DNA of 34,561 bases from Prochlorothrix hollandica PCC 9006 = CALU 1027 (lineage in GTDB: Bacteria > Cyanobacteriota > Cyanobacteriia > Prochlorotrichales > Prochlorotrichaceae). Within the stretch, counting starts at the first letter, position 1; the number at the start of each line of letters is the position of its first letter. A program made the position numbers and the translations under genes. The notes under the pieces were generated by a model. The model was not told the DNA's origin. It made no database searches and worked only from the letters and a program-made list of their open reading frames with translations. Of this stretch, positions 3,753 through 34,561 are shown in pieces. The DNA lies in the NCBI RefSeq assembly GCF_000332315.1, contig NZ_KB235933.1:1379446-1414006 (forward strand), given 5' to 3'.

Positions 3753-5192
3753 CTAATAATTGGTGTAGCCCGTGCCCCGGAGGAAGTCCCGCAGATCCTG
3801 GAAGTAGCGACTACGATCGGCCCCGTCATACACAGAACTCAGGCGATCGAAGGCCGCATCCCCCTCATTCAACAAAAACCGATCTGCCGCATAGGCCGCC
3901 AGTACCCCCTTCACTTCCTGGCCCCGGGCACGGCGGATCACATAGGTTTGCCACAACCCCTCCGCGTGGGCCGTCAGAAGCTGGGGATAGAGCCGCGTCA
4001 CATCAAACATCTGACCTTGGCGATACTGCTGAATTTGCAACGGCAACACCCCATCCTCCACCTGATCCCCAAAGCGGAAGCTAAAGCGGGAATCTTGGCC
4101 ATGGAACTCAGGAATCCCATCCTGATCCCAGTCCAGCAACCGATAGAAACCATAGCCCCAGGGCACCTCCGTCAGGTTATAGGCATTGCGGCGAGGGAGA
4201 TAGGTATAAATCAACGATCGGGAACAACAGCGCCCTTCCCCTGCCACCCCATCCACGACAATTTCCAGACCCCCATCCCCATCCAGGTCATAGAGTTGCA
4301 GCCCCACATTGCGGCTAAAGCCTCCCCCCAGGGGTAAAAGCTGATCCAGTTGGGTTTGCTCCCCCTGGGATACCGTCAGGCGCACTTGGCCATACTCGTA
4401 GTTCTTTTTGGTGTAGGTCAGTTGGGCCACCACATTAGTGTCCACGGCCACCCGGCGCTCCGTGTAGGTTTCGGGGTGACTGGGGGGATCCACCACAAAG
4501 GCCGTGGGAACCCCAGTGGCCGGTAGCCCGCTGCCCCGTACTTGGCAGAACACCGCCGCCGCTTCCCCCCGGGTGATGGGGTCCTGGGGCCGGAACTGGC
4601 GAACCCCCAAGGCCGACACCACCCATTTGCGTTGGGTCAGCGCCGCCACGGCTGCTTGGGCATAGGGCACAATGGTGGATCCATCGTCATAGGTTTGCTC
4701 CAGGATCGCCATCGTCGAGTCCGTGGGTTGCACCTCCAGACCATTGGCCAAGGCTACAAAAAAGTTCTGGCGATCGATGGGCTGATGGGCACCAAAGCGC
4801 CCCTGGGAACCGGAGAAAAAGCCCTGTTGGGTCGTGGTGGTGATCACGTCATAGAAGGGATCCGTGGGGGAAAGATCCCAAAACTCCACCATGGGTTGCA
4901 GTTGGGGAACATTGGGGAAGGCGCGGCTGAGCATATCTGCATATAAGCCACGGGTTAAGGGCGCATCGGGGCGAAACTGGGCATCCGTGAAGCCACTGAC
5001 AATGTTATCGCGGGCCAGGGTTTGCACACAAAGCTGAGACCAATGGCCCCGGATATCGGCAAAGCTGGATTGGGCCACGCTGGGAGCCACGGGCAACAGG
5101 GCCGTCAGTCCGGCAAGGCTGGTGCTCACCAGGGTTTGACCCCATATTCTGGGGCAGGTGAAACGAGGGAAATGCAAGGGCTGTGTCTGCAT
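3753..5192 (-). CDS. SLH-domain (S-layer homology) exported protein
   Basis: This is a 479-residue protein predicted to be exported. An N-terminal basic/hydrophobic stretch ends near ALLPVAPSVAQSS (about residue 43) and looks like a signal peptide. Three SLH-type repeats follow: FADIRGHWSQ...PLTRGLYADMLSRAF (about 45-90), DPFYDVITTTTQQGF...PIDRQNFFVALANG (about 110-152), and YAQAAVAALTQRKWV...DPITRGEAAAVFCQ (about 177-218). SLH domains bind pyruvylated or other peptidoglycan-linked glycans in the outer envelope. The C-terminal half carries a YDLDGDGGLEIVVDG segment resembling calcium-binding or FG-GAP-type repeats. There is no OprB-like porin barrel, so this is not a typical cyanobacterial SLH porin. 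It converges on the pyruvyl-transferase-like gene. A functional link through pyruvylated glycans is suggestive only. Confidence 0.85.
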   Translation of the reverse strand: MQTQPLHFPRFTCPRIWGQTLVSTSLAGLTALLPVAPSVAQSSFADIRGHWSQLCVQTLARDNIVSGFTDAQFRPDAPLTRGLYADMLSRAFPNVPQLQPMVEFWDLSPTDPFYDVITTTTQQGFFSGSQGRFGAHQPIDRQNFFVALANGLEVQPTDSTMAILEQTYDDGSTIVPYAQAAVAALTQRKWVVSALGVRQFRPQDPITRGEAAAVFCQVRGSGLPATGVPTAFVVDPPSHPETYTERRVAVDTNVVAQLTYTKKNYEYGQVRLTVSQGEQTQLDQLLPLGGGFSRNVGLQLYDLDGDGGLEIVVDGVAGEGRCCSRSLIYTYLPRRNAYNLTEVPWGYGFYRLLDWDQDGIPEFHGQDSRFSFRFGDQVEDGVLPLQIQQYRQGQMFDVTRLYPQLLTAHAEGLWQTYVIRRARGQEVKGVLAAYAADRFLLNEGDAAFDRLSSVYDGADRSRYFQDLRDFLRGTGYTNY

Positions 5193-5895: not shown

Positions 5896-6327
5896 TTGGA
5901 GAGTTTCATTCAAATAATGCTGTTGGTCGATGGCGATCGCTATCATCTGTTTGCCGAGGTGGTGATGCCCCATCACGCTCATGTACTGATTAAGCAAGTC
6001 CCTCCGAAAATCCATCGCCTGGGATGGTCGAGTTGCACTCGACCCGAAGCCGACTACAAGTCGGCTCTCCCAGGAGGATGGTCGAGTTGCACTCGACCCG
6101 AAGCCGACTACAAGTCGGCTCTCCCAGGAGGATGGTCGAGTTGTACTCGACCTGAAGCCGACTACAAGTCGGCTCTCCCAGGAGGATGGTCGAGTTACAC
6201 TCGACCCGAAGCCGACTACAAGTCGGCTCTCCCAGGAGGATGGTCGAGTTGCACTCGACCCGAAGCCGACTACAAGTCGGCTCTCCCAGGAGGATATAAA
6301 CGGTTACTTGAGTTCATCATGACTTGA
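5896..6327 (+). pseudogene. remnant of a REP-associated tyrosine transposase (RAYT, Y1/HUH), interrupted by REP repeats
   Basis: A TTG-initiated frame encodes YHLFAEVVMPHHAHVLIKQVPP. This matches the HUH motif region (VVMPNHVHVLI) of Y1 transposases of the IS200-like/RAYT group. Only about 40 residues of transposase-like sequence remain. The frame then runs into five 54-bp repeats and ends shortly after them. Residues before the HUH region and the downstream catalytic tyrosine helix are missing, so the gene should be non-functional. A 9-bp direct repeat, TGCCTAGCG (5883-5891 and 6345-6353), brackets the unit. So does an imperfect inverted repeat AGTTTCATTCAA / TTGAGTGAAACT (5902-5913 and 6324-6335). 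Confidence 0.6.
6022..6291 (+). repeat. 54-bp REP-like tandem array, 5 copies, two hairpins per unit
   Basis: Five contiguous 54-bp units start at 6022, 6076, 6130, 6184 and 6238. Each unit holds two palindromes: GGTCGAGT-TGC-ACTCGACC (stem 8) and GCCGACT-ACA-AGTCGGC (stem 7). Changes in copies 3 and 4 fall in the first loop (TGT, TAC), leaving the stem intact. A further change in copy 3 lies just after it. The unit is a multiple of three, so the frame stays open and encodes an 18-residue repeat, probably incidentally. There are no spacers, so this is not CRISPR. Confidence 0.93.
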
Positions 6328-8203: not shown

Positions 8204-9424
8204 CTAGGCGAACAGTCCAAGCTGTTCGCTGTACGGCTGGCTAGACAAAGCAGTCGGATTGCCAGACATCCTGGTCTTACGCCCGTTCTTTGTCCATTTA
8301 GAGTCTTGGGTTAGCCCCAACCCAGACTTTTCGACATTTTTGGCGGCATTACCATCTCTATCATGTTCGGTTCCGCAACTCACACAGAGGATGGAACGAA
8401 CCGATAGAGCAACCTTGCCCCACCGAAAGCCACAATCAGAACAGATCTGACTGGTTGGCTCCCACCGACTGATGATCCTGACCTCTCGATCATTAACCCT
8501 GTTGGCCTTGGCCTCACACATAGTTCGTGCGGTGCCCCAACCCTGCTGACTGATGGCCCGTGCCAACTTCCGATGGCCAAGCATATTCTTCACCGCCAGA
8601 TCCTCCAACACCACCACTTGATTTTCGTGGATTAGCTGGGTCGTGGTCTTGTGCAGAAAGTCTTTTCGGATATTGGCCGTTTTTAGCTTTAGCTTTGCAA
8701 GGCGCAGCCTAGTCTTTTCGCGACGCTTAGACCCTTTAACTTGGCGGGCCAGCTTACGCTGAAACCGTCGCGTCTTTCGGTCTAACCGATTATATCGAGG
8801 GGATTCTACCCGATCACCTGTGCTGAGAAAGGCAAAGGTTTTGATGCCTAGATCTACCCCAATCGAGGGCCGTAGTGGCTCAATGTTGATGGGACCAATC
8901 TCCACGACAAAGCTGGCATGGTATTGTCCAGCCGTGTTACGGATAATGGTCACAGAGCTAGGTTCAGAGGGCAGTGGCCTTGACCACTTCACCTTGAAGC
9001 GGCCTAACTTGGCTAGTTCAAGCTTATTGCCCTTGAGGGAGAATCCCGTCCGAACAAACCGTGCCGACTGTTGGTTCAGCTTCTTTTTGAACCGAGGGAA
9101 GCCCACCTTTGGCCCTTTTCGTTTACCGCTACGGCTCTCAAAAAAGTTCTTGAAGGCAGCACCTAAATCCTGAACCGACTGCTGCAAGGGCACGACTGAC
9201 ACATCGGCCAACCATTCCCGTTCAGCCGTCTTTTTGGCCTGAGTAATCACCAGCTTTTGCAGTTCAGCATTGCTAGGCCATTTCTCGCCCTGCGGCACTG
9301 ACCGCACAATCGCCAGCGCGTCGTTGTACACAACTCGACAACACCCAAAAAGCTGATTCAGCCCTTTGACCTGTTGCGGTGTCGGATAAATTCGGTACTG
9401 GTATCGTACTTTCATGCTAACCAT
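8204..9424 (-). CDS. tnpB: TnpB RNA-guided nuclease homologue (IS200/IS605, OrfB family)
   Basis: This intact 406-residue TnpB is the ancestor-type protein of Cas12 and an omega-RNA-guided DNA endonuclease in characterised members. The N-terminal helix-turn-helix-like domain is YQYRIYPTPQQVKGLNQLFGCCR. RuvC motif I is GVDLGIKTFAF (D191), motif II VVLEDLAVKNM (E274), the zinc ribbon C328-xx-C331 and C347-xx-C350, and motif III HDRDGNAAKN (D355/D357). All catalytic acidic residues are present, so it is potentially active. The start is ATG at 9424, and a second ATG three codons later is also possible. It is transcribed away from the small gene at 9459. Confidence 0.95.
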   Translation of the reverse strand: MVSMKVRYQYRIYPTPQQVKGLNQLFGCCRVVYNDALAIVRSVPQGEKWPSNAELQKLVITQAKKTAEREWLADVSVVPLQQSVQDLGAAFKNFFESRSGKRKGPKVGFPRFKKKLNQQSARFVRTGFSLKGNKLELAKLGRFKVKWSRPLPSEPSSVTIIRNTAGQYHASFVVEIGPINIEPLRPSIGVDLGIKTFAFLSTGDRVESPRYNRLDRKTRRFQRKLARQVKGSKRREKTRLRLAKLKLKTANIRKDFLHKTTTQLIHENQVVVLEDLAVKNMLGHRKLARAISQQGWGTARTMCEAKANRVNDREVRIISRWEPTSQICSDCGFRWGKVALSVRSILCVSCGTEHDRDGNAAKNVEKSGLGLTQDSKWTKNGRKTRMSGNPTALSSQPYSEQLGLFA

Positions 9425-12302: not shown

Positions 12303-12467
12303 CTACGAACCTGGGGCTGGAGATTACCCCTATGGTGGGTTCTGGGGTGCTGTCAGTGTTCCCACGGGGATCCCTGGGATGCTAGCGTCAACCTTGCGAA
12401 AATTCCTCGTTTATACTGGGTTGTAATGCCTTAAATTTTCTTAAATTCTCAATTCTGAATCCCCTGG

Positions 12468-19620: not shown

Positions 19621-19659
19621 CTGTCCCTAGCTACCTGTCCCTAGCTTACCTGTCCCCTG
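19621..19659. repeat. 14/15-bp tandem repeat spanning the stop codon of the first Rpn gene
   Basis: On the minus strand GGGACAGGTAAGCTA, GGGACAGGTAGCTA and GGGACAGGTTAGG follow one another. The TAA of the first unit is the stop codon of the gene ending at 19646, and the repeat duplicates its last two sense codons plus stop. Confidence 0.88.
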
Positions 19660-20494
19660 CTGCATCTGCCGCCGCCAGCGCCTCCACTTCCGCCAGCGTT
19701 AGCCCCGTCTTTTCCGCAATCACCGCCGCTGGTAACAGTCCCCGCAGCGATCGGGCAATCTCCCGACTCCGCTGCTGCTGCCCTTCCAGGAGCGCCCGCC
19801 GCACCACATTGCGACCGTCTTCTACCCTAAAGGCTTGCTTTTCCAGTAGATCAAATTCCTCCACACTCAAGTTGACGGTCTCGGCAATGTGAAACGCATG
19901 ATCTAGATTGGGACTGGAGTCCAAAGGGGGTGGGATTTCCTCTAGATCACCGGCTTGCTGGAGGAAAAATGTCCAGAGATCCGTGAGGGTCTCCAAATCG
20001 CCTAGGGACTTGGCAAACTTGGGTAATTCTACAAAGACCAGTTCTATATCATCGCCGTAGGGTAGGCCGTCTTCCCGATCGAGCAACTGATAATGGGAGA
20101 GAAAGCGATCGCGTTCGGGAAACAGCACAAAGTCCGTAATGGTCAGGCCAATGACTGGACGTAGGCGACTGTAGCCCTGACCCCGTTGCAGTTGCAGGGA
20201 GTAGGCTTTGGCTACGTTGTACAACACCCGTTTATTAAAATCTAGGGGGTTCAACACCTGCATTTCAATCAACACCATTGTCCCGTCCGCTAGCTGAGCT
20301 TTCACGTCTAGAAAGGTGTCTTTTACGCCCTGAAGCTGGGGCGCTTGGTAGGGGTCGAGAATTTCTAAGTCCTGGACGATCGGTTGGCTATCATAGACCA
20401 AGGCATTAAGAAACTCAATCAGAATAGGCTTGCTTTCCGCTGAACCAAAGATTTTTTTGAAGGCAAAGTCAGTTTTAGGGTCAAGAAAGCGCAT
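19646..20494 (-). CDS. Rpn family PD-(D/E)XK nuclease / putative transposase, array copy 1
   Basis: This 282-residue protein belongs to the recombination-promoting nuclease (Rpn/YhgA-like, PDDEXK_2) group. The N-terminus MRFLDPKTDFAFKKIFG is the family signature. The catalytic core is visible as D63 in FLDVKA and E77-x-Q79 in LIEMQ, the E-x-Q variant of PD-(D/E)XK. Residues up to about 245 are almost identical to the three copies upstream. This copy has no EEGR repeat: EGQQQRSREIARSL links directly to a C-terminal motif, AAVIAEKTGLTLAEVEALAA, that looks like a small helix-turn-helix. The Shine-Dalgarno AGAGGGT precedes the ATG, as in all copies. Whether it acts in recombination, defence or gene conversion is unknown. 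Confidence 0.9.
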   Translation of the reverse strand: MRFLDPKTDFAFKKIFGSAESKPILIEFLNALVYDSQPIVQDLEILDPYQAPQLQGVKDTFLDVKAQLADGTMVLIEMQVLNPLDFNKRVLYNVAKAYSLQLQRGQGYSRLRPVIGLTITDFVLFPERDRFLSHYQLLDREDGLPYGDDIELVFVELPKFAKSLGDLETLTDLWTFFLQQAGDLEEIPPPLDSSPNLDHAFHIAETVNLSVEEFDLLEKQAFRVEDGRNVVRRALLEGQQQRSREIARSLRGLLPAAVIAEKTGLTLAEVEALAAADAAGDR

Positions 20495-20620
20495 GGGTTA
20501 CCCTCTGGATAGTGATTCCTGAACTCGATCGCCGGAACTGGCGGCTGGGGATGCTGGAGCGATCGACCTTGCGATCGCTCCGGCATCCCCACCATCATAC
20601 CAAACCCCAAAAACCAGTCC
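20495..20620 (-). promoter_or_regulatory. conserved spacer upstream of Rpn copy 1 with 19-bp hairpin
   Basis: The spacer carries an extended -10-like TGGTATGAT on the minus strand (20594-20602). A long hairpin at 20547-20590 has 19-bp arms with one mismatch around a loop of ACCTTG, and contains two GCGATCG words. The RBS AGAGGGT follows. The same spacer recurs upstream of copies 2 and 3, but there one hairpin arm has been altered by a small deletion. Confidence 0.5.
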
Positions 20621-21565
20621 TCAGGTTCCCGCTGCTGCATCAGCCGCCGCTAGCGTTTCCACCTCCGCCAGGGTTAGCCCCGTCCGCTCTGCAATCACCG
20701 CCGCCGGTAACAGTCCAAGGAGCGATCGGGCAATCTCCCGCCGACTTTCCTGAATTCCCGCTTCGCGGCCTTCTTCGCGGCCTTCTTCGCGGCCTTCTTC
20801 GCGGCCTTCTTCGCGGCCTTCTTCGCGGCCTTCTTCCCGCCCCTGTTGCAGCCCTTCCAGGATGGCTCGGCGCACCACATTGCGACCGTCTTCCACCCTG
20901 AAGGCTTGCTTCTCCAGCAGGTCGAATTCCTCCATGCTCAAGTTGATGGTCTCGGCAATGTGAAACGCATGATCTAGATTGGGACTGGAGTCCAAAGGGG
21001 GTGGGATTTCCTCTAGATCACCGGCTTGCTGGAGGAAAAATGTCCAGAGATCCGTGAGGGTCTCCAAATCGCCTAGGGACTTGGCAAACTTGGGTAATTC
21101 TACAAAGACCAGTTCTATATCATCGCCGTAGGGTAGGCCGTCTTCCCGATCGAGGAGTTGGTAATGGGAGAGAAAGCGATCGCGTTCGGGAAACAGCACA
21201 AAGTCCGTAATGGTCAGACCAATGACTGGACGTAGGCGGCTGTAGCCCTGACCCCGTTGCAGTTGCAGGGAGTAGGCTTTGGCTACGTTGTACAACACCC
21301 GTTTATTAAAATCTAGGGGGTTCAAAACCTGCATTTCGATCAACACCATGGTTCCGTCTGCTAGCTGGGCCTTTACGTCCAGAAAGGTGTCTTTCACCCC
21401 CTGAAGCTGGGGCGCTTGGTAGGGGTCGAGAATTTCTAGGTCTTGGACGATCGGTTGGCTATCATAGACCAAGGCATTAAGAAACTCAATCAGAATAGGC
21501 TTGCTTTCCGCTGAACCAAAGATTTTTTTGAAGGCAAAGTCAGTTTTAGGGTCAAGAAAACGCAT
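20621..21565 (-). CDS. Rpn family PD-(D/E)XK nuclease / putative transposase, array copy 2
   Basis: This 314-residue paralogue has the same catalytic core as copy 1 (FLDVKA D63, LIEMQ E77/Q79). The difference lies after residue about 240. Six REEG units followed by REAG form a highly charged, probably helical linker before the C-terminal motif AAVIAERTGLTLAEVETLAA. The linker is encoded by 12-bp units, so unit gain or loss keeps the frame. It is 126 bp upstream of copy 1 and may be co-transcribed, although each gene has its own RBS and promoter-like spacer. Antisense and other-frame open frames over the repeat are artefacts of the repeat. Confidence 0.9.
   Translation of the reverse strand: MRFLDPKTDFAFKKIFGSAESKPILIEFLNALVYDSQPIVQDLEILDPYQAPQLQGVKDTFLDVKAQLADGTMVLIEMQVLNPLDFNKRVLYNVAKAYSLQLQRGQGYSRLRPVIGLTITDFVLFPERDRFLSHYQLLDREDGLPYGDDIELVFVELPKFAKSLGDLETLTDLWTFFLQQAGDLEEIPPPLDSSPNLDHAFHIAETINLSMEEFDLLEKQAFRVEDGRNVVRRAILEGLQQGREEGREEGREEGREEGREEGREEGREAGIQESRREIARSLLGLLPAAVIAERTGLTLAEVETLAAADAAAGT
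20758..20842 (-). repeat. 12-bp coding tandem repeat (REEG units), 6 perfect plus flanking partial units
   Basis: On the plus strand TTCGCGGCCTTC is repeated. On the coding strand it encodes Glu-Glu-Gly-Arg. Unit number differs between array copies: six here, nine in copy 4, none in copies 1 and 3. Confidence 0.95.
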
Positions 21566-21690
21566 GGGTTACCCTCTGGATAGTGATTCCTGAACTCGAT
21601 CGCCGGAACTGGCGGCTGGGGTGGTTCAGCGATCGACCTTGCGATCGCTCCGGCATCCCCACCATCATACCAAACCCAAAAAACCAGTCC
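21566..21690 (-). promoter_or_regulatory. conserved spacer upstream of Rpn copy 2
   Basis: This 125-bp spacer is nearly identical to 20495-20620, with the same extended -10-like TGGTATGAT and RBS. The left hairpin arm is altered (GGGGTGGTTCAGCGATCG), which leaves only the inner GCGATCG stem. Confidence 0.4.
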
Positions 21691-22572
21691 TCAGGTTTCC
21701 GCTGCTGCATCGTCCGCCGCCAGCGCCTCCACCTCCGCCAGGGTTAGCCCCGTCCGCTCTGCAATCACCGCCGCCGGTAACAGTCCAAGGAGCGATCGGG
21801 CAATCTCCCGCCGACTTTCTTGAACTGCTTCTAGCGCCTCAGCCCGTCCCTGTTGCAGCCCTTCCAGGATGGCTCGGCGCACCACATTGCGACCGTCTTC
21901 CACCCTGAAGGCTTGCTTCTCCAGCAGGTCAAATTCCTCCATGCTCAAGTTGATGGTCTCGGCAATGTGAAACGCATGATCTAGATTGGGACTGGAGTCT
22001 AAAGGGGGTGGGATTTCCTCTAGATCACCGGCTTGCTGGAGGAAAAATGTCCAGAGATCCGTGAGGGTCTCCAAATCGCCTAGGGATTTGGCAAACTTGG
22101 GTAATTCTACAAAGACTAGTTCTATATCATCGCCATAGGGTAGGCCGTCTTCCCGATCGAGCAACTGATAATGGGAGAGAAAGCGATCGCGTTCGGGAAA
22201 CAGCACAAAGTCCGTAATGGTCAGGCCAATGACCGGACGCAGGCGACTGTAGCCTTGGCCCCGTTGCAGTTGCAGGGAGTAGGCTTTGGCCACGTTGTAG
22301 AGGACGCGCTTGTTAAAATCCAGGGGATTCAACACCTGCATTTCGATCAAAACCATGGTTCCGTCTGCTAGCTGGGCCTTTACGTCCAGAAAGGTGTCTT
22401 TTACGCCCTGGAGTTGGGGTGCTTGGTAGGGGTCGAGAATTTCTAGGTCTTGGACGATCGGTTGGCTGTCATAAACCAAGGCATTAAGAAACTCAATCAG
22501 AATAGGCTTGCTTTCGGCTGAACCAAAGATTTTTTTGAAGGCAAAGTCAGTTTTAGGGTCAAGAAAGCGCAT
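21691..22572 (-). CDS. Rpn family PD-(D/E)XK nuclease / putative transposase, array copy 3
   Basis: This 293-residue paralogue has an unchanged nuclease core (D63, E77, Q79). Its linker lacks EEGR units and reads GLQQGRAEALEAVQESRREIARSL, perhaps the ancestral form from which the repeats expanded in its neighbours. The C-terminal motif is AAVIAERTGLTLAEVEALAADD. Synonymous differences to the other copies are scattered in patches, as expected from gene conversion. The start ATG and RBS are the same as in copies 1, 2 and 4. Confidence 0.9.
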   Translation of the reverse strand: MRFLDPKTDFAFKKIFGSAESKPILIEFLNALVYDSQPIVQDLEILDPYQAPQLQGVKDTFLDVKAQLADGTMVLIEMQVLNPLDFNKRVLYNVAKAYSLQLQRGQGYSRLRPVIGLTITDFVLFPERDRFLSHYQLLDREDGLPYGDDIELVFVELPKFAKSLGDLETLTDLWTFFLQQAGDLEEIPPPLDSSPNLDHAFHIAETINLSMEEFDLLEKQAFRVEDGRNVVRRAILEGLQQGRAEALEAVQESRREIARSLLGLLPAAVIAERTGLTLAEVEALAADDAAAET

Positions 22573-22697
22573 GGGTTACCCTCTGGATAGTGATTCCTGA
22601 ACTCGATTGCCGGAACTGGCGGCTGGGGTGGTTCAGCGATCGACCTTGCGATCGCTCCGGCATCCCCACCATCATACCAAACCCCAAAAACCAGTCC
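22573..22697 (-). promoter_or_regulatory. conserved spacer upstream of Rpn copy 3
   Basis: This 125-bp spacer is nearly identical to 21566-21690, including TGGTATGAT and the inner GCGATCG stem. Confidence 0.4.
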
Positions 22698-23678
22698 TCA
22701 GGTGCCCGCTGCTGCATCTGCCGCCGCTAGCGTTTCCACCTCCGCCAGGGTTAGCCCCGTCCGCTCTGCAATCACCGCCGCCGGTAACAGTCCAAGGAGC
22801 GATCGGGCAATCTCCCGCCGACTTTCCTGAATTCCCGCTTCGCGGCCTTCTTCGCGGCCTTCTTCGCGGCCTTCTTCGCGGCCTTCTTCGCGGCCTTCTT
22901 CGCGGCCTTCTTCGCGGCCTTCTTCGCGGCCTTCTTCGCGGCCTTCTTCGCGCCCCTGTTGCAGCCCTTCCAGGATGGCTCGGCGCACCACATTGCGACC
23001 GTCTTCCACCTTGAAGGCTTGCTTCTCCAGCAGGTCAAATTCCTCCATGCTCAAGTTGATGGTCTCGGCAATGTGAAACGCATGATCTAGATTGGGACTG
23101 GAGTCTAAAGGGGGTGGGATTTCCTCTAGATCACCGGCTTGCTGGAGGAAAAATGTCCATAGATCCGTGAGGGTCTCCAAATCGCCTAGGGATTTGGCAA
23201 ACTTGGGTAATTCTACAAAGACTAGTTCTATATCATCGCCATAGGGTAGGCCGTCTTCCCGATCGAGGAGTTGGTAATGGGAGAGAAAGCGATCGCGCTC
23301 TGGAAACAGCACAAAGTCCGTAATGGTCAGACCAATGACTGGACGCAAGCGACTGTAGCCCTGGCCCCGTTGCAGTTGCAGGGAGTAGGCTTTAGCCACG
23401 TTGTAGAGGACGCGCTTGTTAAAATCCAGGGGATTCAACACCTGCATTTCGATCAACACCATTGTCCCGTCCGCTAGCTGGGCTTTCACATCGAGAAAGG
23501 TGTCTTTCACCCCCTGAAGCTGGGGCGCTTGGTAGGGGTCGAGAATTTCTAAGTCCTGGACGATCGGTTGGCTGTCATAGACCAAGGCGTTGAGAAACTC
23601 AATTAGAATAGGCTTGCTTTCGGCTGAACCAAAGATTCTTTTGAAGGCAAAGTCAGTTTTAGGGTCAAGAAAGCGCAT
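22698..23678 (-). CDS. Rpn family PD-(D/E)XK nuclease / putative transposase, array copy 4 (longest)
   Basis: This 326-residue protein is the first gene of the array in transcription order. The core matches the other copies, except that K14 of the FKKIFG motif is Arg (FKRIFG). D63, E77 and Q79 are retained. Nine REEG units plus REAG make the linker three units longer than in copy 2, exactly accounting for the 12-residue length difference. The upstream RBS has one change (GGATAACCC instead of GGGTAACCC). The C-terminal end AAVIAERTGLTLAEVETLAAADAAAGT matches copy 2 exactly, pointing to exchange between copies 2 and 4. Confidence 0.9.
   Translation of the reverse strand: MRFLDPKTDFAFKRIFGSAESKPILIEFLNALVYDSQPIVQDLEILDPYQAPQLQGVKDTFLDVKAQLADGTMVLIEMQVLNPLDFNKRVLYNVAKAYSLQLQRGQGYSRLRPVIGLTITDFVLFPERDRFLSHYQLLDREDGLPYGDDIELVFVELPKFAKSLGDLETLTDLWTFFLQQAGDLEEIPPPLDSSPNLDHAFHIAETINLSMEEFDLLEKQAFKVEDGRNVVRRAILEGLQQGREEGREEGREEGREEGREEGREEGREEGREEGREEGREAGIQESRREIARSLLGLLPAAVIAERTGLTLAEVETLAAADAAAGT
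22838..22953 (-). repeat. 12-bp coding tandem repeat (REEG units), 9 units
   Basis: Nine perfect copies of TTCGCGGCCTTC on the plus strand are followed by a variant (TTCGCGCCCCTG) at the start of the coding linker. Perfect identity of the units indicates recent expansion. Confidence 0.95.
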
Positions 23679-27219: not shown

Positions 27220-28410
27220 ATGCTAGTTTTTGAATTTAAAGCCTACGGAAAAGAAAGTCAATTCGCCGCGATAGACGAGGCGATACGGACGTTTCAGTTC
27301 ATTCAGAACAAATGTTTAAGGTTCTGGATGGATAACGAGAAAGTGTCCAAGTACGACCTCAACAAATATTCGGCAATATTGGCGAAAGAATTTCCGTTTG
27401 CGAATGAACTCAATAGCATGGCTAGACAGTCGGCAGCAGAAAGAGCATGGTCAGCCATCTCTCGCTTCTATGCTAATTGCAGAAAGGAAGTGCGAGGCAA
27501 AAAGGGATTTCCACAGTTTAAGCACGATACCAGATCTGTCGAATATAAAACGACGGGGTGGAAATTGGCTGACGACAGGAAATCTATCAGTTTTACCGAT
27601 GGGAAAAATATCGGCAGACTGAAATTAAAAGGAACTCGTGACCTCCATTTCTATCAAAAAGAACAGATTAAACGAGTCCGGTTGCTTAAAAAAGCAGATG
27701 GATACTACGTTCAATTCTATATTGATGTAGAAAGAAGAGAGGTCATTGAACCTTCGGGTTCAACCATTGGGTTAGACGTAGGACTCAAGGAGTTTTACAC
27801 CGATTCCAATGGCGAGACTGTGGACAACCCTAGATTTCTCCGTAAAGGAGAGAAAAGATTAAAACAGGCTCAAAGAAGAGTCTCTCGTAAAGAGAAAGGC
27901 TCTAATAATCGACGCAAGGCTAGACAGCTTTTAGGAAAGCGTCACCTCAAAATAAGTCGGCAACGTAAAGATCATGCCGTGAAATTGGCACGATGCGTAA
28001 TCCAGTCAAACGACTGTGTAGCCTATGAAGATTTGAGGATTAAGAATATGGTAAAAAACCATTGTCTAGCCAAGTCAATCAATGATGCTTCATGGTATCA
28101 ATTCAGAGTATGGCTAGAATATTTTGGCAAGCTCTTTGGGAAAATAACCATTGCTGTTGTCCCCAATGGAACCAGTCAAAAATGCTCTAGTTGTGGCACT
28201 GTGGTCAAGAAAGCACTTTCCACTCGAACTCGTGTTTGTCGATGTGGGTGTGTATTAGATCGTGACCATAACGCGGCACGGCATATTTTACAGAAAGCAA
28301 TAGGTACAGTAGGGCATACTGGAACCTACGGACTAGATCCGTCAAACGCTTCGGGAGAAATGACCTCTACTCTGGTTGGAGCAATCCTGCCAGAGCAAGT
28401 CGCTTCGTAG
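27220..28410 (+). CDS. tnpB: TnpB RNA-guided nuclease homologue, different subgroup
   Basis: This intact 396-residue TnpB is only distantly related to the one at 8204. RuvC motif I is IGLDVGLKEF (D186), motif II VAYEDLRIKNM (E270), the zinc-binding region C322-xx-C325 with CRCGC at 340-344, and motif III LDRDHNAARHI (D347/D349). All key acidic residues are present. The gene is clearly more AT-rich in codon use than its neighbours, for example many AAA, GAA and AGA codons, which suggests more recent acquisition. No tnpA accompanies it. The ATG at 27220 is used, with a poor Shine-Dalgarno. Confidence 0.94.
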   Translation: MLVFEFKAYGKESQFAAIDEAIRTFQFIQNKCLRFWMDNEKVSKYDLNKYSAILAKEFPFANELNSMARQSAAERAWSAISRFYANCRKEVRGKKGFPQFKHDTRSVEYKTTGWKLADDRKSISFTDGKNIGRLKLKGTRDLHFYQKEQIKRVRLLKKADGYYVQFYIDVERREVIEPSGSTIGLDVGLKEFYTDSNGETVDNPRFLRKGEKRLKQAQRRVSRKEKGSNNRRKARQLLGKRHLKISRQRKDHAVKLARCVIQSNDCVAYEDLRIKNMVKNHCLAKSINDASWYQFRVWLEYFGKLFGKITIAVVPNGTSQKCSSCGTVVKKALSTRTRVCRCGCVLDRDHNAARHILQKAIGTVGHTGTYGLDPSNASGEMTSTLVGAILPEQVAS

Positions 28411-31736: not shown

Positions 31737-32747
31737 ATGGCAGAATTTTCAGTGCAATTGATGCCCACGGATCAGCCCTTGGTGTTGGAGATGCCACCGG
31801 GGGAACTATGGAGTGACGAACCGCCTTTGGAATCAGACCTACACCGGGAGCACATCGAGCGCCTGTTGCGGCTATTGAAATGGCACTGGCGCGATCGCAC
31901 TGACTACTACGCCAGCGGAAACCTGACCATTTATTACAACCCAAAGCAACTGAAGTCGCGGGATTTTCGGGGTCCGGACTTTTTTGTGGTGCTGGGGGCA
32001 GAGAATCGCAGTCGCAATAGTTGGGTGGTCTGGGAAGAAAGGGATCAGTATCCCCATGTGATCATTGAGTTACTGTCGGAATCCACAGCGACGGTCGATC
32101 GGGGGCTGAAAAAGCAGTTGTACCAGGACGTGTTCCGCACCCCCCATTATTTTTGGTTTCATCCCCGGACCTTAGAATTAGCAGGTTTTGAGCTAGTGCA
32201 AGGCCAGTATCAGGCCATTCCTGCCAATGCTGAGGGCCATCTCTGGTGCGAGAGTTTGGGGTTATTTGTGGGCCTAGCCGACCGTAGTCTTTGGTTTTTC
32301 ACGGCGGCGGGCGATCGGGTGCTGTTACCAGAAGAAGCCGCAGCCCAGCAAGCGCAAGCCGCAGCCCAGCGGGAGCAAGCCGCAGCCCAGCAAGCGCAAG
32401 CCGCAGCCCAGCAAGCGCAAGCCGCAGCCCAGCAAGCGCAAGCCGCAGCCCAGCGGGAGGCAACTGAGCGCCAACGGGCGGAAGCCGAAGCTCAGCGAGC
32501 GGAAACTGAGCGCCAACGGGCGGAAACTCAAACCCAGCTTGCGCAAGCTGAAGCTCAGCGGGCGGAAACTGAGCGCCAGCGGGCGGAAACTCAAACCCAG
32601 CAGGCGCAAGCCGCAGCCCAGCGAGCGGAAACTGAGCGCCAACGGGCCGATCGTGCTGAAGCTCAGCGAGCAGAAGCTGAAGCCCAGGTGGCCCAGCTCT
32701 TAGCCCAACTTCAGCAGCAGCAACAACAAGGGGAAGGGGAGGATTAA
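31737..32747 (+). CDS. Uma2 family (DUF820) PD-(D/E)XK nuclease-like protein with long coiled coil, copy 1
   Basis: This 336-residue protein has an N-terminal Uma2-type domain (about 1-200). FRGPDFFVVLG supplies PD (D81), VIIELLSEST gives E111, and the basic residues around VDRGLKKQLYQ follow, as in PD-(D/E)XK nucleases. HYFWF and LELAGFELVQGQYQ are typical further signatures. From about residue 200 the protein is an almost uninterrupted Ala/Gln/Glu/Arg helix built from seven-residue units (QAQAAAQ, RAETERQ), a strong coiled-coil pattern. Uma2 proteins are abundant in cyanobacteria, and their biological role is not settled. The RBS GAGGA lies 8 nt before the ATG. It is followed 3 nt later by a shorter near-identical gene. 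Confidence 0.88.
   Translation: MAEFSVQLMPTDQPLVLEMPPGELWSDEPPLESDLHREHIERLLRLLKWHWRDRTDYYASGNLTIYYNPKQLKSRDFRGPDFFVVLGAENRSRNSWVVWEERDQYPHVIIELLSESTATVDRGLKKQLYQDVFRTPHYFWFHPRTLELAGFELVQGQYQAIPANAEGHLWCESLGLFVGLADRSLWFFTAAGDRVLLPEEAAAQQAQAAAQREQAAAQQAQAAAQQAQAAAQQAQAAAQREATERQRAEAEAQRAETERQRAETQTQLAQAEAQRAETERQRAETQTQQAQAAAQRAETERQRADRAEAQRAEAEAQVAQLLAQLQQQQQQGEGED
32334..32470 (+). repeat. 21-bp coding tandem repeat (heptad QAQAAAQ) in Uma2 copy 1
   Basis: CAAGCGCAAGCCGCAGCCCA and minor variants recur with 21-bp period, encoding seven-residue coiled-coil units. A related pattern (GCGGAAACTGAGCGCCAACG, RAETERQ) continues to about 32660. Confidence 0.92.
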
Positions 32748-32750
32748 ACC

Positions 32751-33506
32751 ATGGCAGAATTTTCAGTGCCATTGATGCCCACGGATCAGCCGGAGATGCC
32801 ATCCGGGGAATTATGGAGTGACGAACCTCCCTTAGAGTCCGACCTACATCGAGATCATATAAATCGCCTGTTGCGGCTATTGAAATGGCACTGGCGCGAT
32901 CGCACTGACTATTACGCCAGCGGTAACCTGACTATTTATTACAACCCCAAGCAACTGAAGTCGCGGGATTTTCGGGGTCCGGACTTTTTTGTGGTGCTGG
33001 GGGCAGAGAATCGCAGTCGCAATAGTTGGGTAGTCTGGGAAGAAAGGGATCAGTATCCCCATGTGATCATTGAGTTACTGTCGGAATCCACAGCGACGGT
33101 CGATCGGGGACTGAAAAAGCAGTTGTACCAGGATTTGTTCCAAACGCCCCATTATTTTTGGTTTGATCCCTATACCTTAGAATTAGCGGGTTTTGAGCTA
33201 GTGCAAGGTCAGTACCAAGCTCTTAGTCCCAATGATCAGGGCCATTTGTGGTGCGAGAGTTTGGGGTTATTTGTGGGAATAGAAGACCGTAGTCTTTGGT
33301 TTTTCACGGCGGCGGGCGATCGGGTGCTGTTACCCGAAGAAGCCGCAGCCCAGCAAGCGCAAGCCGCAGCCCAGCGGGCGGAAACTGAGCGCCAACGAGC
33401 CGATCGTGCTGAAGCTCAGCGGGCAGAAGCTGAAGCCCAGGTGGCCCAGCTCTTAGCCCAACTTCAGCAGCAGCAGCAAGGGGAACAGGGGTTCGAGCAC
33501 CCTTGA
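32751..33506 (+). CDS. Uma2 family (DUF820) PD-(D/E)XK nuclease-like protein, copy 2 (short coiled coil)
   Basis: This 251-residue tandem paralogue has a nuclease-like domain nearly identical to copy 1: FRGPDFFVV, VIIELLSEST, GLKKQLYQ. The coiled coil is about 80 residues shorter. The sequence jumps from QQAQAAAQ directly to RAETERQRADRAEAQ, as if the internal heptads of copy 1 were deleted here or expanded there. The tail (GEQGFEHP) differs. The leader GAGGATTAAACC before its ATG is identical to that before copy 1 and includes the TAA stop of copy 1, so the duplication unit carried its own RBS. The two are surely co-transcribed. Confidence 0.88.
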   Translation: MAEFSVPLMPTDQPEMPSGELWSDEPPLESDLHRDHINRLLRLLKWHWRDRTDYYASGNLTIYYNPKQLKSRDFRGPDFFVVLGAENRSRNSWVVWEERDQYPHVIIELLSESTATVDRGLKKQLYQDLFQTPHYFWFDPYTLELAGFELVQGQYQALSPNDQGHLWCESLGLFVGIEDRSLWFFTAAGDRVLLPEEAAAQQAQAAAQRAETERQRADRAEAQRAEAEAQVAQLLAQLQQQQQGEQGFEHP

Positions 33507-34061: not shown

Positions 34062-34561
34062 ATGGTTAGCATGAAAGTACGATACCAGTACCGAATTTAT
34101 CCAACACCGCAACAGGTCAAAGGGCTGAATCAGCTTTTGGGTGTTGTCGAGTTGTGTACAACGACGCGCTGGCGATTGTGCGGTCAGTGCCGCAGGGCGA
34201 GAAATGGCCCAGCAATGCTGAACTGCAAAAGCTGGTGATCACTCAGGCCAAAAAGACGGCTGAACGGAAATGGTTGGCCGATGTGTCAGTCGTGCCCTTG
34301 CAGCAGTCGGTTCAGGATTTAGGTGCTGCCTTCAAGAACTTTTTCGAGAGCCGTAGCGGTAAACGAAAAGGGCCAAAGGTGGGCTTCCCTCGGTTCAAAA
34401 AGAGCTGAACCAACAGTCGGCACGGTTTGTTCGGACGGGATTCTCCCTCAAGGGCAATAAGCTTGAACTGGCCAAGTTAGGCCGATTCAAGGTGAAGTGG
34501 TCAAGGCCACTGCCCTCTGAACCTAGCTCTGTGACCATTATCCGTAACACGGCTGGACAAT
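34062..34561 (+). pseudogene. tnpB: tnpB copy 2, frameshifted and truncated by the window end
   Basis: Compared with the intact gene at 8204-9424, this copy lacks one T in the run after CAGC near 34136 (four instead of five). That shifts the frame after about residue 25. It also lacks one A near 34403 (AAAAAGAGCTG instead of AAAAAGAAGCTG), which ends the middle frame at RFKKS. Point differences are few (for example AEREW to AERKW), so inactivation is recent. RuvC motifs would lie beyond the window end. Confidence 0.88.

Follow-up and report, generated by a model that had tools for sequence, protein, structure and literature searches.

The closest described relatives of the genes considered here are the Rpn proteins of Escherichia coli. 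According to Zhong et al. 2023 (PMC10327210), an rpn gene specifies a toxic nuclease and also, from an internal start, a small C-terminal antitoxin; a gene of C. difficile likewise yielded a small product. The tail of RpnA dimerises through a helix able to take four-residue repeat insertions, and the repeats of this C-terminal helix, four residues each, vary in number in Rpn proteins. Addition of one repeat to RpnC abolished recognition and neutralisation between RpnS and RpnL, which were restored if both partners carried it. One Rpn protects against phages, and the same account mentions rpn arrays arising by tandem duplication. In Thermosynechococcus, CL-1 was described with two rpn arrays, of nine and four copies, and one further copy (PMC7005997), and TA-1 with 11, 3 and 3 copies (PMC9403480). 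Here we analyse a stretch of 34,561 nucleotides from Prochlorothrix hollandica PCC 9006 = CALU 1027 (assembly GCF_000332315.1, contig NZ_KB235933.1, positions 1,379,446 to 1,414,006), hereafter the window, which carries an array of four rpn genes, W1 to W4, that share one protein core and differ in the length of the linker to a small C-terminal tail. Our preferred reading, to which we assign a probability of about 0.5, is that linker length acts as a matching code for Rpn self-assembly, so that array members do not interfere with one another.

The window array is a case of a known phenomenon, as both the family and its repeat variation have already been published. E. coli RpnA-E and plasmid-borne RpnP2 resemble it in their catalytic residues, in a helix with variable four-residue repeats and in a sporadic multi-copy distribution (PMC10327210, PMC5350276). 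However, E. coli Rpn proteins were assigned to PF04754 by Kingston et al. 2017 (PMC5350276), whereas the window genes belong to PF12784. E. coli rpn genes have an internal start with a ribosome-binding site, but none is detectable in the window genes, and the repeat variation reported by Zhong et al. is between strains, whereas that of the window is between neighbours in one array (PMC10327210). Thermosynechococcus resembles the window in having tandem rpn genes with copy numbers that differ among strains (PMC7005997, PMC9403480); unlike the window, arrays of this type have spacers of 3 or 7 bp and a strong internal ribosome-binding site. A parallel from outside the family is the TAEL repeat of EcoR124I and EcoR124II, in which the number of four-residue units alters the specificity of a DNA enzyme, although there it is the spacing of the DNA target that changes and not the choice of partner (cited in PMC10327210). 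Literature searches found no description of arrays whose members share a core but have linkers of unequal length, and the accessible parts of the two Thermosynechococcus reports contain no mention of linker variation within arrays (PMC7005997, PMC9403480).

The array comprises the following features, in reading direction. Linkers are counted as the residues between ...LEG and IARSL, and repeat tracts are from Tandem Repeats Finder.

22698..23678, minus strand: rpn copy W4, 326 amino acids, nine EEGR units, linker of 51 residues; first in reading direction
22838..22952, minus strand: EEGR tract of W4, 12-bp unit, 9.6 copies, 100% match, score 230
22573..22697, minus strand: spacer W4/W3, 125 bp, with TATGAT, a AGCGATCG-CAAGGT-CGATCGCT hairpin and a CCAGAGGGTAACCC-ATG context at the W3 start
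21691..22572, minus strand: rpn copy W3, 293 amino acids, linker of 18 residues without EEGR (AEALEAVQ)
21566..21690, minus strand: spacer W3/W2, 125 bp, hairpin and start context as in the W4/W3 spacer
20621..21565, minus strand: rpn copy W2, 314 amino acids, six EEGR units, linker of 39 residues
20761..20836, minus strand: EEGR tract of W2, 12-bp unit, 6.3 copies, 100% match, score 152
20495..20620, minus strand: spacer W2/W1, 126 bp, hairpin and start context as in the W4/W3 spacer
19646..20494, minus strand: rpn copy W1, 282 amino acids, linker of 7 residues without EEGR

The first-pass annotation of this DNA had recognised four consecutive Rpn genes at 19646-23678, with spacers of about 125 bp and 0, 6, 0 and 9 EEGR units, and this anatomy was borne out, with all four genes on the minus strand and spacers of 125-126 bp. 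The two genes without EEGR are not alike, their linkers being 7 residues in W1 and 18 in W3. A search for internal promoters gave three promoter-like sites over the two strands, where 2.4 were expected. The three window matches to the spacer hairpin have CAAGGT as their loop, and the three matches in the B array described below have ATCTTG; the two loops are nearly reverse complements, as if the loop had been inverted, and the C region holds two of each.

All four genes match PF12784 (E ~2e-48; score 165 bits, cut-off 27.4) and, above its cut-off, TIGR01784 'Rpn family' (E 5e-40 to 8e-48), a model that among the control genomes also matches E. coli. The motif segments of PD-(D/E)XK nucleases were found in all four. 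Across 54 aligned sequences, the PD-(D/E)XK residues D9, D63 and Q79 never vary, and at least 90% of the sequences have E77. RpnA needs residues D11, D63, E82 and Q84 (PMC5350276), to which D9, D63 and E77-x-Q79 of the window proteins correspond; the window proteins thus possess the catalytic residues of PD-(D/E)XK enzymes.

The claim that the four genes are near-identical holds for the protein but not for the DNA. Over the first 240 residues, W1 to W4 differ at 0-6 amino acids, W2 and W3 being identical, whereas core DNA identity is 93.0-95.4% (4.6-7.0% of bases differ). The genome contains 22 PF12784 genes (profile search, 23 rows, two of which are pieces of one frame), 14 of which belong to the close subfamily of the window and lie in five groups. 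The PF12784 genes are distributed as follows; the linker of B4 was counted from its open reading frame (ORF) and codons.

Window: group W, copies W1-W4, linkers of 7, 39, 18 and 51 residues
C1:618-622 kb: group B, copies B1-B4, linkers of 39, 19, 31 and 27 residues
C9:654-666 kb: three C pairs, copies C1-C6, linkers of 19, 11, 23, 15, 23 and 23 residues
C5:215-218 kb and C9:88-91 kb: arrays of a distant subfamily, three genes each
C5:445 kb and C1:653 kb: single PF12784 genes

Across the 14 close copies, the 600 core sites include 118 variable ones, 98 at codon position 3. Median synonymous divergence (dS) of the core is 0.354, median nonsynonymous divergence (dN) is 0.0099, and dN/dS as a ratio of means is 0.027; mean dS is 0.283 for the 15 pairs within arrays and 0.377 for the 76 pairs between them. 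The copies are therefore not fresh duplicates, because their core DNA has diverged, mostly at third codon positions. The informative core sites are mosaic in that neighbouring sites conflict less than shuffled ones. A home-made statistic resembling the pairwise homoplasy index, based on the two commonest states per site, gave 0.460 against 0.606 +/- 0.015, and none of 1000 permutations was as low. W1 and W2 share an identical run of 207 bases despite 32 differences in 600 (0/1000 random placements); in this test of 91 pairs they alone lay beyond all 1000 random placements, and five pairs fell below 0.01. The check for conversion tracts suggested in the first-pass annotation thus indicated that copies have exchanged sequence. 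To judge from these patterns, the core protein is kept by selection, with exchange among copies, and the linker meanwhile changes, and the perfect 12-bp units within W2 and W4 suggest that the repeats changed recently.

Linker lengths follow a ladder of four residues. The length is 3 modulo 4 in 13 of the 14 close copies, the 18-residue linker of W3 being the sole exception, and in 36/36 array linkers of a second cyanobacterial genus (arrays with truncated copies included, single genes and the frame-shifted G043b left out, as in the equal-length tests below). We compared copies in 12 arrays, six from the P. hollandica genome and six from five other genomes; outside this set are masked stretches, neighbours of mixed type, unrelated tails (L150, L151, L156-L159, L162-L166), the pair C1/C2, in which the tail of C1 enters a 100-N gap, and tandem-looking pairs such as those of G109 and G144. 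The 71 pairs that are at least 80% identical show 70 linker gaps, 65 of which have a length divisible by four residues, and 26 of 29 adjacent pairs carry an internal gap. Of the eight gaps that lie before residue 200, a truncated copy accounts for three, all within its linker, two adjoin a masked stretch, and the remaining three represent one 8-residue N-terminal difference. Four-residue units persist in repeats as unlike as EEGR, QQGL and QEGR and in another nuclease family, DUF2887-DUF4351; a step shared by unlike repeats and families looks required by the helix and not just by one DNA repeat.

Beyond this genome, no tandem arrays of the window subfamily were listed in 80 loci of other records plus relatives from the same class, those loci being nearly all cyanobacterial and 44-56% related. 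A scan of 118 stretches found 113 rpn-like ORFs in 96 of them and none in 22; it listed seven arrays, all in the P. hollandica genome, using a model built from the window subfamily that would miss distant families. Other Rpn-type subfamilies form arrays in G015, G029, G034 (partly masked), G055, G056 and G092, and rpn arrays are also present in single-contig genomes (e.g. G029, G043 and G056). Relatives, all below 60% identity, were found by tblastn in 142 of 72,556 plasmid records and in 7 of the 50,697 phage records searched, a distribution that fits horizontal spread.

The second genus provides the closest view of linker change. All nine of its genomes match one array gene, two of them weakly, and we studied 13 stretches from seven genomes, in which two loci were recognised by their flanks. 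At the first locus, copy numbers in six species are 7, 3, 3, 10, 2 and 5 when truncated copies are counted, and linkers are, for example, 23, 27, 75, 55, 67, 51 and 59 residues long in G043 and 35, 27 and 15 in G099; at the second, copy number ranges from one to four across six species. When complete genes are compared (one G029 gene and the truncated genes of G133 and G140 left out), 11 pairs differ at no more than 3 of 615 core bases (<=0.5%), and in 10 of these pairs the linkers differ by 1-12 units. Among the six pairs without any difference in the 615 bases, five differ by 1-6 units and the sixth, which is part of a duplicated block, has equal linkers. Linker length, described as variable in the first-pass annotation, does vary in this way, and by this comparison it can apparently change fast. 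In G056, one array has nine complete genes and the other four, and there is a single gene besides (truncated copies not counted), numbers that fit CL-1 (PMC7005997); we infer from this match that the second genus is Thermosynechococcus. The members of the G056 arrays differ by four-residue linker units. Spacers are 3 bp in the G056 arrays and 7 bp in G043 and G029, and the G056 gene that was examined is of the DUF2887-DUF4351 type.

Some further observations concern copies of the second genus. An N-terminally truncated copy with a linker of 23 lies at the flank-gene end of the first locus in each of L167, L171, L175 and L176; in L168, from a fifth species, the first copy also has a linker of 23 and an altered N terminus and is perhaps the same case. 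The single rpn copy of L178 (2190-3254, plus strand) has a linker that seems frame-shifted through the repeat and back in frame at the tail.

The predicted structure places the repeats on a helix. An AlphaFold2 model of W4 has a mean predicted local distance difference test (pLDDT) score of 76.8, falling to 46-65 in the repeat blocks, and shows a long helix after the core (residues 211-264 and 273-294) followed by two short helices. The isolated W3 tail was modelled as three helices (pLDDT 83.4). The three-helix topology, with repeats on a long first helix, is thus a prediction of low confidence in the repeat region. Sequence searches found no convincing solved relatives, the weak matches being repeat-like proteins or TetR regulators. 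With the full model, the top two Foldseek rows were weak matches to EndoMS and EcoT38I (E 0.039 and 0.058), both of which we take to be PD-(D/E)XK enzymes, and the best match in the VIA fold search had a Z score of 5.2 (root-mean-square deviation (rmsd) 3.7, 105 residues aligned). For the tail, the best Foldseek E value was 2.0, while VIA against 200 chains returned helix-turn-helix (HTH) proteins, TrpR-like ones first (Z 6.5, rmsd 8.4, 65 aligned); the solved RpnA tail is absent among the rows listed in that search. The HTH-like appearance of the tail noted in the first-pass annotation agrees with these rows, but Z scores of at most 6.5 are, for helical bundles, below the level that would mean kinship.

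Internal starts for a small C-terminal product were sought by comparing anti-Shine-Dalgarno duplex energies with those of synonymous shuffles. Ahead of the linker and tail, genes of the second genus have an ATG (Met) with GAGGAGGTG six bases upstream of it. The mean site energy is -14.2 kcal/mol against -8.9 +/- 0.6 in the shuffles for 42 genes, these being the ones with a recognisable Met motif among 54 ORFs (the assignment of at least one, L151, is doubtful); 37 of the 42 come from the second genus and are hence non-independent. A Met occupies the equivalent place in 32 of 84 relatives from the window subfamily, and in these a site of -4 or better occurs in 41% (shuffles 15%; mean -3.03 against -2.15 +/- 0.32). 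The 52 relatives without the Met have no excess of sites (15% against 13%). In P. hollandica itself, 13 close copies (C1 is not among these) have Phe (TTC/TTT) at this place, and the two distant single copies have Arg and Ile. Two adjacent GTG codons and one TTG further upstream, near the repeats, are kept in 14/14 copies, with best sites of -4.6 (GTG) and -3.0 (TTG) against -6.3 at the main start of the window genes. An internal start with a ribosome-binding site before the repeats, as expected for an RpnL/RpnS pair, was not found in the window genes, and among the matches listed no tail-only ORFs of the window subfamily were recognised in this genome. Either a weak GTG start is used or the window lineage may work without the small protein; the undetectable internal start is the most unexpected point of this analysis. 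Elsewhere, L162 (1063-2527, minus strand) holds a 311-amino-acid rpn-like gene followed by tail-only ORFs of 85 and 82 amino acids that resemble stand-alone antitoxins.

We propose that the window array comprises four copies of one putative Rpn-type PD-(D/E)XK DNA nuclease, in which a catalytic core is followed by a long helix able to accommodate repeats of four residues and by a small tail that resembles an HTH. Purifying selection and exchange between copies hold the core constant, and the helix would gain and lose whole 12-bp units, presumably by repeat slippage or recombination. Each member would probably assemble with itself, and with its own small tail protein where one is made, and not with neighbours of other lengths, because the helix of E. 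coli Rpn is a dimerisation surface and RpnC recognition needs equal repeat numbers. As the usual internal start is undetectable in the window genes, matching may act in these between full-length chains. In that case the array would provide several toxic nucleases that work side by side without interfering with one another, and phage defence would most likely be their role. What the data show is the gene anatomy, the catalytic motif, selection, mosaicism and the ladder of linker lengths, together with fast linker change and recurrence in the second genus; for the window proteins we infer nuclease activity, toxicity, phage defence, length matching and the mechanism of repeat change.

Several observations weigh against length matching. 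The EEGR unit of the window is without a hydrophobic residue, whereas the repeats of Zhong et al. generally have one (PMC10327210). In none of 15 P. hollandica genes (the 13 close copies and the two distant singles) was there an in-frame ATG or GTG with a site of -5 or better from -30 to +15 codons around the anchor (shuffles 0.43). In the 12-array set, an internal gap is absent from three of the 29 adjacent pairs. Permutation tests for avoidance of equal lengths within arrays were non-significant and are suggestive at most: 1/15 pairs of P. hollandica copies are equal (0.82 expected), as are 5/90 pairs in the second genus (7.1 expected, P 0.26) and 0/28 adjacent pairs there (2.2 expected, P 0.089), or, with the duplicated block collapsed, 2/73 pairs (5.3 expected, P 0.061) and 0/26 adjacent pairs (1.9 expected, P 0.13). 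Variation of copy and repeat number across relatives, on which the first-pass annotation had staked its idea, occurs for both numbers among species at one locus of the second genus, but four plasmid records from Planktothrix that carry a single-copy relative without repeats all have the same linker. Inspection by eye of the genes beside the array revealed no defence gene, no dedicated search having been made, and W4 has no PADLOC match in a 2023 library that may not include Rpn.

One alternative is neutral drift, according to which the linker is a tolerant spacer, the 12-bp repeat slips and the length differences are without function. The perfect units of W2 and W4 are what recent slippage predicts, avoidance of equal lengths lacks significance, and relatives with short or no repeats exist. 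We nevertheless consider drift somewhat unlikely, given that a change of one repeat alters RpnC recognition (PMC10327210) and that four-residue units are kept across EEGR, QQGL, QEGR and DUF2887-DUF4351. A canonical Rpn toxin-antitoxin, in which each gene makes a full-length toxin and an antitoxin from an internal start and repeat number makes each pair private, overlaps with length matching as we propose it. It is the published arrangement for E. coli Rpn, with the small C. difficile product as a further case (PMC10327210), and the GAGGAGGTG site before ATG in the second genus and the excess of sites in Met-bearing relatives speak for it. For the window genes themselves it is unlikely, as Phe stands at the Met place in 13 close copies, there is no good alternative ATG or GTG, and the conserved GTG and TTG sites are weaker than the main start.

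Less probable still is a contingency locus, in which slippage in the linker and in a start-proximal poly-A tract would switch or tune the nucleases within a population. Near the rpn start, at codons 13-15, a seven-base A tract is present in 11 of the 13 copies in which the tract was found (one reads AAAAGAA); it is A6 in B4 (L139 ~5111-5160) and A8 in C5 (L140 ~12400-12460), both of which shift the frame. These could be either slippage or sequencing error, as homopolymer errors in assembly would look alike, and the 12-bp unit keeps the frame, as the first-pass annotation had recognised, so that its change leaves the gene on. We found no support for the contingency switch raised there and regard it as quite improbable. 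The same annotation had suggested mixed oligomers, and near-identical cores (0-6 differences in 240 residues) could allow mixed core contacts between long and short forms as the working unit; this is contradicted by the RpnC result, in which a mismatch of one unit abolished recognition (PMC10327210), and seems highly improbable. An assembly artefact is hardly credible. Two 100-N runs touch rpn copies in the C9 region (L140 2068-2167 and 4137-4236) and are likely scaffolding gaps caused by repeats; the family thus seems to have been hard for the assembler, copy order in that region is uncertain, and the numbers of repeat units may not be exact. The window, however, contains no N, and its copies are distinct in DNA at 4.6-7.0% of core bases, and similar arrays occur in the single-contig genomes and in published genomes.

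The neighbours of the array are a TPR protein, beyond which lies an ORF that looks ClpB-like by eye, and, at the opposite end, a metallo-beta-lactamase/alkyl-sulfatase-type protein. Elsewhere the window contains a tandem pair of Uma2-type genes on the plus strand, which repeats the pattern of the rpn array in a second family, as well as some other features:

31737-32747, plus strand: first Uma2-type gene, with PF05685 and weak PADLOC matches to candidate PDC-S03 (E 1e-6)
32751-33506, plus strand: second Uma2-type gene
5896-6327, plus strand: 54-bp unit, 5.1 in-frame copies (GWSSCTRPEADYKSALPG repeats), 97% match
8204-9424, minus strand: OrfB_IS605/TnpB-like ORF
27220-28410, plus strand: OrfB_IS605/TnpB-like ORF
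34154-34408, plus strand, near the window end: fragment matching the 8204-9424 ORF by eye

The aligned DNA of the Uma2-type pair is 92% identical, and the two genes differ mainly by one gap of 252 bp (84 residues) in the C-terminal repeat region. The genome gave 41 Uma2-type match rows, this pair included. Presumably PF05685/Uma2 is another putative PD-(D/E)XK family.

In conclusion, the experiment of adding one repeat to RpnC has been repeated by nature many times within single genomes with the core held constant. The window array (7, 39, 18 and 51 residues) and that of G043 (27-75 residues in six complete genes, some of whose cores are identical over 615 bases) are ready panels for the study of partner choice by helix length. 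The missing detectable internal start parts two ideas that are usually joined, the matching of repeat lengths and the intragenic antitoxin. A broader claim, which we hold tentatively and consider doubtful, is that tandem Rpn arrays generate partner-recognition codes, in which the nuclease would be held constant by duplication and conversion and every copy would receive its own helix length through repeat change; this would give several private assemblies per genome and, in the window lineage, would do so between full-length chains and without an internally translated antitoxin, unlike described Rpn systems. The pattern of one core with many lengths recurs in cyanobacteria, and if the matching reading is true these organisms would maintain several non-interfering versions of one nuclease.

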